NCBI GenBank assembly: GCA_023512135.1
Contig: JAIMAG010000018.1
Coordinates: 1 to 47,026 of the forward strand
Source: Terriglobia bacterium
GTDB taxonomy: Bacteria; Acidobacteriota; Terriglobia; Acidiferrales; UBA7541
Direction: 5' to 3'
Length of the DNA stretch: 47,026 nt
This document shows positions 40,323-44,865 of the stretch, piece after piece; positions within the stretch are counted from its first letter, which is position 1, and the number at the start of each line of letters is the position of its first letter. Made by a program: the position numbers and the translations under genes. Under the pieces are notes generated by a model, which had not been told where the DNA came from, searched no databases, and saw only the letters and a list, made by a program, of their open reading frames with translations.

Positions 40323-40718
40323 CTACTTGTCCAGCGTGGCGCCGCAGCGCTTGCAGGCGCGGAAGCGGGCCACGATTTTTTTGCGCTCGATCTCGGTTCC
40401 ATCGGCGCGGGTCACCCGCACTGTGCCCCATTCGACCTGGTGCGCGACGCGAGTCGGCTTGCCGCAGGCCGGGCAGATGACCATGACATTGGAAACATCC
40501 ATGGGGGCCTCGCGTTCCACGATGCCGCCCTTGATGTTTTTCGCCGGGTTCGGCCGAGTGTGCCGTTTGATCAGGTTGGCATGCTCGACCGTGACCTTCC
40601 GGCGCACCGGGTCTACGGAGAGCACGCGGCCGGTCTTGCCGGCGTCGCGGCCAACCAGCACGCGCACCTGGTCGCCCTTGCGGACGCTGAGTCTGGTTCG
40701 AATCGGTTCGCTGCGCAT
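40323..40718 (-). CDS. rplX: 50S ribosomal protein L24 (uL24) with zinc-ribbon C-terminus
   Basis: The 131-residue protein has the KOW motif ([21 protein letters not shown]). Its C-terminal part includes two C-x2-C pairs (Cys82/85, Cys122/125), which probably bind zinc. I chose ATG 40718, since GGAAG is about 10 bases upstream; a GTG at 40727 is too close to that site. It initiates 50S assembly at the 5' domain of 23S rRNA. Confidence 0.94.
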
Positions 40719-40720
40719 CG

Positions 40721-41089
40721 CTACCACACTTCCGGTGCCAGAGAGACGATTTTCGTAAACTTCTTTTCGCGCAGTTCGCGCGCGACCGGGCCGAACACGC
40801 GGGTGCCGATGGGCTCACCCGCTTCGTTGATCAGCACCGCGGCGTTGTCGTCGAAACGGATGTAGGTGCCGTCGCGGCGGCGATGTTCTTTGCGCATGCG
40901 CACCACCACGGCACGGACCACCTTGCCTTCCTTGATCGGGCTATCCGGCGCCGCTTCCTTCACCGACGCGGTGACCACATCGCCGAGACCGGCGCGGAGG
41001 CCGACGTGGCCGCCGACCGGCAGAATACACATCAGCCGGCGAGCGCCGGAATTGTCCGCTACGGTGAGCCAGGTTCGCATGCCGATCAT
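40721..41089 (-). CDS. rplN: 50S ribosomal protein L14 (uL14)
   Basis: The 122-residue protein has the uL14 pattern [41 protein letters not shown] and [33 protein letters not shown] lies six bases upstream of the ATG at 41089. It is the docking site for RsfS and part of the inter-subunit bridge. Confidence 0.97.
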
Positions 41090-42767: not shown

Positions 42768-43298
42768 CTACTTCTTCTTTTTCGTTTTCTTGCGAGCTGG
42801 CGCGGTGCGTTTGCGCTGCTGTTCGGCCATCCGCTTGCGAACCTTCTTGACCGCGCCGGCGACACCTTTCATCGCTTCGGCTTCGGCCGCGGCCGCGGCG
42901 GCGCGCTGCTGGGCGGCGCGTTCCTGTTCGGCCACCGCCACCAGAATGTGGCTCGTCCGGCGCTGGTAGCGGTAGGCACGGCCCATCGGGGCCGGGCGGA
43001 TGCGCTTCCAGCGCGGGCCTTCATTCACATAGCATTCCGCCACATACAACTGATCCACGTCGAGCGCGGCACCGGCCTCTTCGGCTTTGCGTTCGGCGTT
43101 GGCCAGCGCGCTGCGCAGAACCTTTTCGATATCGCGGGCCACGCGTTTCCGAGTGAAACGGAGAATCTGCAGCGCCTCTCCGACGCGGCGGCCGCGAATC
43201 AGATCGATCACCAGACGGGCTTTCTGCGGCGAGACCCGCACATAGCGGGCCAGCGCGCGCGCCGAAAGTGCCGTGGTTGCCAGCGTTGCGGTTGCCAT
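42768..43298 (-). CDS. rplV: 50S ribosomal protein L22 (uL22) with long Lys/Ala tail
   Basis: The 176-residue protein has the uL22 core ([23 protein letters not shown] and [25 protein letters not shown]). It is about 60 residues longer than the E. coli protein because of a C-terminal extension rich in Ala and then Lys, ending KKTKKKK. L22 lines the peptide exit tunnel; the extension would reach solvent or rRNA. Confidence 0.96.
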
Positions 43299-43301
43299 CG
43301 C

Positions 43302-43613
43302 CTATGCCTTTGCAGCCGGCGCCGGGGCCGGACCGGCAGTTTTTTCCAGCGCCGCCTTGACCGAGTGCCCCTTGAAGGTGCGGGTCGGGGCAAATTCGCC
43401 GAGCTTGTGGCCGACCATCTGTTCGGTGATGTAGACGGGAATGAATTTCTTCCCGTTGTGTACGGCAATCGTGTGGCCGACCATCTCCGGCACAATCGTC
43501 GAGCGGCGCGACCAGGTCTTGATCACTTTTTTTTCATGGCGCGCGTTCATGGCCTCGATCTTTTCCATCAGGTGATCGTCCACGAACGGGCCTTTTTTCA
43601 GCGAACGTGCCAT
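43302..43613 (-). CDS. rpsS: 30S ribosomal protein S19 (uS19)
   Basis: The 103-residue protein begins [21 protein letters not shown] and has [26 protein letters not shown] and [14 protein letters not shown]. The start at 43613 is the conserved one, four bases after the stop of the extra gene upstream. It contacts the A-site finger and S13 in the head. Confidence 0.96.
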
Positions 43614-43617
43614 CGGG

Positions 43618-43953
43618 TTACTCCGCGACGCGACGCAACTTGATCCATTTGGCCCGGCGCACCTTCTGGAAGCCCCGCACCGGTCCGGGGACACGATGCG
43701 AGTGCGGGCAGAACGGACAGACAAACCGCGTGCCCACACCCGCCGGATTTTTTTCGACCAGCACGGCCCAGCCCGGCTTGCACACGCGGAACAGCACCGG
43801 GGCCGGAGGCTCGACCGCCGAGCGCAGCTCAGCGCCCGGTTGCGGTTTCCGCGCGGCCGGTTTCGTCGTTCGCACCGACGCGCGGCGGCGCGAAGAGATT
43901 CGTCGTGTTGCTGTCATCGTCATACCCGTTTCCACCCGCCGCGCCGGGTTCAT
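43618..43953 (-). CDS. Unrecognised 111-residue basic Cys/His-motif protein between rplB and rpsS
   Basis: This gene stands where rplB is normally followed directly by rpsS. The product is very basic. Residues 1-50 look disordered and rich in Arg, Ala and Pro. Residues 51-111 form a compact part with Cys58, then Cys79-x2-Cys82, His84 and His86 ([11 protein letters not shown]) and a basic end ([18 protein letters not shown]). A zinc-binding RNA or ribosome-associated role is my inference. The ATG at 43953 has GGGAG eight bases upstream, at the foot of a perfect hairpin. It ends four bases before rpsS. I do not know a family for it. Confidence 0.7.
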
Positions 43954-43964
43954 GGTTTTTTCTC

Positions 43965-43988
43965 CCGTTCGTCCCTCGGGACGAACGG
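43965..43988 (-). promoter_or_regulatory. Perfect 11-bp hairpin abutting the ribosome binding site of the extra gene
   Basis: The arms ccgttcgtccc (43965-43975) and gggacgaacgg (43978-43988) are exact complements with two bases between. On the transcribed strand the 3' arm ends ...AACGG and GGGAG begins within its last bases, so the folded hairpin could hide the ribosome binding site. The T run beyond is too short for a terminator. Confidence 0.7.
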
Positions 43989-44046: not shown

Positions 44047-44865
44047 CTACTTGCGCCGCTGCACAATCAACCGGTCCGACGGCTTGCGCCGGCGCGTCCG
44101 CGCACCCAGGGTCGGTTCGCCCCAAGGGGTCTGCGGATGATTACCCTTGACGCGGCCTTCGCCGCCGCCGTGCGGATGATCTACCGGATTCATGGCCACA
44201 CCGCGCACGGTCGGGCGGATACCCCGCCAACGCGAGCGACCGGCTTTGCCGTACGAGATGTTTTCATGGTCCAGGTTACCGACCTGACCGATCGTGGCCA
44301 TGCACTCCACCGAAAACTTTCGCACCTCGCCGGAAGGCAGTTTGACCAGCGCCACATCCCCTTCTTTGGAAAGCAACTGAGCCGCCGCGCCGGCCGCACG
44401 CACCAGTTGGCCACCTTTGCCCGGGTACAGCTCCAGGTTGTGCACCTGGGTGCCCGGCGGAATCAGCCGCAGCGGGAGCGCATTGCCGGGCAGAATGTCG
44501 GCACCTTCGCCGGCGAGCACGGTCATGCCCACTTCCAGTCCGACCGGATGCAGGATGTAGCGCTTTTCTCCATCCGCGTAGTGCAGCAGCGCCAGGTTCG
44601 CCGAGCGATTCGGATCGTATTCGACCGCTGCGACGCGCGCCGGAATGCCGATTTTGTCGCGTCGAAAGTCCACACGACGATACTGCCGCTTGTGGCCACC
44701 GCCTCGGTGCCAGACGGTGATTTCGCCGTGGTTGTTGCGTCCCCCGGTGCGCTTCTTGGGCTCCAGCAGCGATTTTTCCGGCTCCTGCTTGGTGATCTCG
44801 CGCTTGTCCAGCACGGTCAGGAAGCGTCGCGATGCGGTGTACGGGTTGAAACTTTTCAGGGGCAT
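44047..44865 (-). CDS. rplB: 50S ribosomal protein L2 (uL2)
   Basis: The 272-residue protein begins [21 protein letters not shown] and has [22 protein letters not shown], and near the end the signature [17 protein letters not shown] needed for peptidyl transfer. It is followed on the transcript by a 93-nt gap, the extra gene and then rpsS. Confidence 0.97.

Follow-up and report, generated by a model that had tools for sequence, protein, structure and literature searches.

A small, basic protein with a predicted zinc site is encoded between rplB and rpsS throughout one family of Acidobacteriota. It is, in our judgement, probably an undescribed lineage-specific zinc protein of the ribosome, either a component or permanently bound, whose synthesis is probably controlled by a leader RNA; the zinc, the ribosome binding and the autoregulation are what we infer. 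Judged from sequence, this clade-restricted protein family with its conserved leader is real, undescribed and most likely, if not yet provably, ribosomal. The window referred to below is the whole stretch of DNA that was analysed, 47,026 nt of contig JAIMAG010000018.1, and not the feature under study.

A wider claim is held more tentatively, and we lean slightly against it: that a ribosomal protein with a new zinc fold entered a whole family of soil Acidobacteriota at the rplB-rpsS junction of the S10 operon, together with its own autoregulatory leader RNA. If true, both the emergence of a new bacterial ribosomal protein and that of its feedback control could be assigned to a single branch. 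The protein would mark its clade, being found in every member with an assembled locus and absent from sister families, and its insertion site is an otherwise tight junction in a very conserved operon. Leaders differ between sub-lineages, so that the acquisition of the protein could be examined alongside that of its control, and the protein would offer a concrete proteomics target for uncultivated soil Acidobacteriota. To our knowledge, only a small number of lineage-specific ribosomal proteins has been described in bacteria. The way in which ribosomes gain new proteins is stated to be an open question (PMC10764239).

The insertion at the rplB-rpsS junction

The gene and its neighbours lie in the window as follows.

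44047..44865, minus strand: rplB (uL2), the upstream neighbour (open reading frame and homology)
43618..43953, minus strand: open reading frame of the new protein in its longer reading, from Met1 (111 aa; first ATG, GGGAG upstream)
43618..43917, minus strand: coding sequence of the new protein when begun at Met13, the favoured start (99 aa; invariant M column, constancy of the locus, C-terminal dN/dS)
43302..43613, minus strand: rpsS (uS19), the downstream neighbour (open reading frame and homology)

The earlier note had described an additional gene between rplB and rpsS, running in the same direction and ending four bases before rpsS, and the coordinates agree, with 4 nt between its stop and the rpsS ATG. 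The same order and direction are found in all 79 distinct loci, where rplB and rpsS, with the insert between them, stand 330–673 nt apart; in 65 of the 79 the new gene stops no more than 10 nt from rpsS. Among 15 outgroup genomes, sister families included, the rplB-rpsS gap measures −4 to 37 nt (130 nt in one) and contains no homologue.

The family in question is a single Acidobacteriota family, in which relatives carry the labels Ca. Acidiferrales, UBA7541 and gp2. Strong homologues, at 54–87% identity, were confined to the window's own family in a protein search of 61 genomes, and a search with a 30-member alignment matched the gene in 77 of 89 family genomes, representing 13 of 13 genera. 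The 12 assemblies without the gene are the same 12 that are without rpsS, which means that no locus-bearing genome was seen gene-free and that the gene is universal among the family genomes with an assembled locus (77/77). Relatives that share the locus yet lack a homologue, an outcome that the earlier note had said would speak against it, did not turn up.

Beyond the family, a profile of the C-terminal domain found no convincing homologue in the order's two other families, among some 190 genomes of the class outside the family or in a phylum sample of 247 genomes, the best matches in these samples being partial with E about 2e-4. A scan of 84,980 species genomes, which detects near-exact short peptides and may let remote homologues escape, returned 77 loci, 75 of them from genomes labelled as Acidobacteriota (Acidobacteria, Ca. 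Acidiferrales, Ca. Acidiferrum UBA7541, Terriglobia or gp2). No match to the protein was found in the plasmid collection. The insertion cleanly marks one Acidobacteriota family, and the lineage-restricted family foreseen for this junction is borne out by 79 of 79 loci and by nothing convincing elsewhere. Two metagenome-assembled genomes labelled Bacillota and Betaproteobacteria (L031 and L096) bear an Acidobacteriota locus, and their labels are probably wrong. Two further genomes (G086 and G102) have two copies of the gene each, on separate contigs, which could reflect strain mixture or contamination instead of duplication.

Chance open reading frames abound in GC-rich DNA, and the insert might be taken for one of these, with no gene behind it. 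That reading has a negligible probability and is already refuted by the occurrence of the gene in 77 family genomes, by a C-terminal dN/dS of about 0.1 and by 22 invariant columns among the last 63 of 79 aligned sequences. The insert is a real gene. A comparison of the two species in the window's genus gives a dN/dS of 0.07 over codons 51–111, 0.26 over codons 13–50 and about 1.1 over codons 1–12, the last a weak estimate from only 12 codons. The C-terminal median over 524 pairs of moderate divergence is 0.11. Purifying selection on the C-terminal 60 residues is strong; the conserved C-terminal half that had been noticed in the window is thus upheld, and the value near 1 between close relatives that would have told against it was not obtained. 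Mean pairwise identity over these 60 residues is 79%, comparable to that of the ribosomal proteins on either side (rplB 84%, rpsS 87%), and divergences of the new protein correlate with those of rplB (r = 0.80), as vertical inheritance predicts.

The protein and its predicted zinc site

Read from Met13, the protein is 99 residues long, with a pI near 12. Its N-terminal tail, across 79 sequences, is variable, basic and rich in alanine and proline, with acidic residues almost absent. The conserved part is made up as follows.

43621..43809, minus strand: conserved C-terminal domain, residues 49–111 (22 invariant columns; AlphaFold2 model)
43780..43782, minus strand: Cys58, predicted zinc ligand (invariant, 79/79)
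43708..43719, minus strand: C79-P-F-C82 knuckle, predicted zinc ligands (invariant, 79/79)
43696..43698, minus strand: His86, predicted fourth zinc ligand (invariant, 79/79)
43702-43704, minus strand: His84, a variable position (K, R, L, V and others in relatives)

The 22 invariant columns fall within the C-terminal 63 residues of the 79 sequences. They comprise a CCCH-type set of four (C58, C79, C82 and H86) and, among others, G61, W62, T75, R76, R87, G90, P91, V92, R93, G94, F95 and R108. The spacing C-x20-C-x2-C-x3-H probably denotes one zinc site, the metal itself being deduced from these residues. All the motif residues listed in the earlier note are present and four of them are invariant, but His84, which it had listed with them, varies and is no conserved ligand. 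AlphaFold2 models the C-terminal domain as five strands and a short helix (pLDDT 87.1, pTM 0.71), and the full-length chain with a pLDDT of 58.6. Foldseek found no match among solved structures for either model, which is weak evidence of a new fold given how small the domain is.

Searches of Pfam and NCBIfam gave no family match for the whole protein or for the C-terminal domains, only zinc-knuckle matches below threshold, and the best PDB sequence profile (E 0.08) covered a 20-residue stretch of L37a. A known named family matching the full length, another finding that the earlier note held would refute its reading, therefore did not emerge from Pfam, NCBIfam or the PDB. One member matched Flavi_NS4B, which was taken as chance as the match falls in the low-complexity tail. 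A (F/V)-C-P-F-C knuckle is common to the new protein, Elf1 (PF05129) and eL43/L37a (weak matches, E 0.05–0.4); however, only about 20 residues match, below the cut-offs, and the first CxxC pair of the ribbon is a single cysteine in the new protein. Identity with these zinc ribbons was rejected, since in place of two CxxC knuckles the protein has one Cys, then CPFC, then His. Neither sequence nor fold searches matched it to any ribosomal protein, and no description of it was found in the open-licence literature.

The leader RNA and the start codon

Three elements precede the gene in the window.

43965-43975 / 43978-43988, minus strand: perfect 11-bp inverted repeat (arms 100% complementary)
43962..43966, minus strand: GGGAG, a Shine-Dalgarno-like site placed for Met1 (sequence)
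43935..43948, minus strand: Form A element, CCCGGCGCGGCGGG, which can form a CCCG/CGGG hairpin (about 33/79 loci)

The GGGAG abuts the hairpin and partly overlaps its 3' arm, in keeping with the perfect 11-bp hairpin that had been reported beside this site, and the window leader is more structured than its shuffles (z = −2.3). This hairpin occurs in the window and a congener only, the congener having a 10-bp version formed with G-U pairs and a bulge. A conserved upstream hairpin with compensating changes, which the earlier note had anticipated, does exist in 30 loci, but it is a different structure from the genus-specific one of the window.

That structure, Form B, is a 9–10-bp hairpin immediately ahead of a GAGAG or GAGG site in 30 of 79 loci, mostly from one large genus. 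Two-sided changes affect 9 of its 10 pairs, the kind of compensated conservation expected of a ribosomal-protein leader. Its covariation score is 0.444, against 0.201 for shuffled alignments (reached by 0 of 500) and 0.06–0.14 for slid controls; these exact numbers are flattered because the structure came from the very alignment on which it was scored and the shuffles ignore relatedness, yet the two-sided changes are many. A covariance model of Form B had its top match at this locus in all eight genus-g6 genomes scanned, with modest scores in two (G092 and G018).

Form A is a conserved 14-nt element of the window and about 32 other loci, arising in 0.2% of shuffled leaders. It usually stands 17 nt upstream of the conserved ATG. 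Form A is kept not only where it is in frame with an upstream ATG but equally where it is out of frame or where no such ATG exists (for example in L004, L007, L008, L010, L012, L013, L028 and L068), which points to constraint on nucleotides and not on a peptide. Its CCCG/CGGG stem varies too little for covariation. A genome-wide regulon was rejected, exact 14-mers elsewhere being at background level. Form A lies inside a short out-of-frame upstream reading frame in L012 and L077; that of L077 reads MNPARRV-stop, and the TGA of that in L012 overlaps the ATG of the gene. Such short frames suggest translational coupling in these members. Three loci (L026, L067 and L081) have a leader of about 23 nt with neither form. 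An RNA element has thus been retained in some parts of the family, while other parts have lost or exchanged it.

Ribosomal operons are often controlled autogenously through a leader, and the position of the hairpin beside the ribosome-binding site would fit such control. The present leader resembles such elements in being a conserved RNA structure with compensatory changes directly upstream of a ribosomal-operon gene. It differs in lineage and gene from the 20 candidate ribosomal-protein leaders already reported (PMC7247131), and cmscan of five loci against Rfam 15 found nothing relevant and no known leader of this class.

Two starts compete in the window. Met13 (ATG at 43917) aligns with the start of the family, the M column being invariant in 79 sequences, though alignment of the first residues is ambiguous in one divergent group (L030, L089, L090, L101 and L102). 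In the window's genus the better Shine-Dalgarno site, GGGAG, suits Met1, while codons 1–12 are without constraint at the protein level; their dN/dS indicates that the Met1 extension may be untranslated or unconstrained. This value and the family alignment make Met13 the likely start. Met13 is favoured, although not settled, with conservation on its side and the Shine-Dalgarno-like site on that of Met1. The ribosome-binding site noted before Met1 is therefore present, but the true start is probably 12 codons downstream.

Ribosomal component, visiting factor or regulator

The new protein fits a ribosomal protein in where it is encoded, in its universality and basic tail, in a degree of conservation like that of ribosomal proteins, and in its predicted zinc domain. 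With its predicted zinc it resembles the small basic zinc-type proteins bL31, bL32, bL33, bL36 and uS14, of which bL32 likewise has its zinc domain after a basic tail; it differs from them in its C-x20-C-x2-C-x3-H pattern and in having no Pfam match. It would be an addition to the zinc ribosomal proteins checked, not a replacement: bL31, bL32 and bL33 are present in 9 of 9 family genomes tested and bL36, zinc-type uS14 and zinc-type uS4 in the window, so that substitution for bL31, bL32, bL33, bL36 or zinc-type uS14 was rejected. Lineage-specific bacterial ribosomal proteins include bS22, bL37 and bL38, and in Borrelia two such proteins were unannotated until a cryo-EM structure revealed them (PMC10618245). 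The new protein shares with bS22, bL37 and bL38 its small size, basic charge, restriction to a clade and escape from annotation; it differs in its CCCH motif and in sitting inside the S10 operon. Homology to these three was rejected, as PDB profile and Foldseek searches gave no match, although so weak a search leaves remote analogy possible.

As a ribosomal protein, it would thread its flexible tail, rich in Lys, Arg, Ala and Pro, into rRNA. The beta domain of about 60 residues would fold around one zinc held by C58, C79, C82 and H86 and dock on rRNA through its invariant arginines and aromatics. Because the gene is in the S10 operon, mostly within 10 nt of rpsS, the protein would be made in step with its neighbours. 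A protein, most likely the new one, probably binds the structured leader beside the ribosome-binding site and limits translation of the new gene when rRNA is short. Sub-lineages have different leaders and a few have none, so autoregulation would be either not general or rewired.

Ribosome assembly, hibernation and quality-control factors can also be small and zinc-binding, and the operon location, basic charge and zinc motif would suit a factor of this sort, visiting the ribosome and forming no part of it, equally well. We consider this unlikely, though it deserves serious attention, because universal presence, a C-terminal conservation near that of rpsS and rplB and placement in the S10 operon of every genome fit equimolar production better. 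The mid-operon position and the structured leader directly upstream could instead belong to an RNA-binding protein dedicated to regulating the S10 operon (rpsS and the genes downstream), acting on mRNA and off the ribosome. This is less probable still: the leader varies by sub-lineage and the C-terminal domain hardly changes, so that the main partner should itself be conserved, as rRNA is.

The leader hairpin might, on the other hand, have nothing to do with the new protein, and this we find quite possible, if not what we would expect. A hairpin next to a start site can work with no ligand at all, and the present one could do no more than shape mRNA stability or coupling from rplB. It could also be bound by another ribosomal protein, uL2 being a rival ligand since an L2 leader has been proposed upstream of the Alphaproteobacterial rplB-rpsS operon (PMC7247131). 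Against either form of this explanation, the hairpin is placed downstream of rplB and immediately ahead of the new gene, and its best copy in the scanned genomes is at this gene.

In a comparison of sequences within and outside the family, neither uL2 nor uS19 showed a family-specific change that would point to it as a binding partner. The C-terminal loop of uL2 in the window (44047-44865) is one residue shorter than usual, 22 against 23; the short loop is common to the family, one sister-family genome and one genome of another family of the class, and so does not track the new gene. Elsewhere in the window, rplV (uL22, 42768-43298) encodes 176 aa in all, with a long Ala/Lys-rich C-terminal extension ending KKTKKKK, and the C-terminal half of the uL24 reading frame (40323-40727) resembles a zinc ribbon, with four cysteines in the arrangement CPAC...CKRC.
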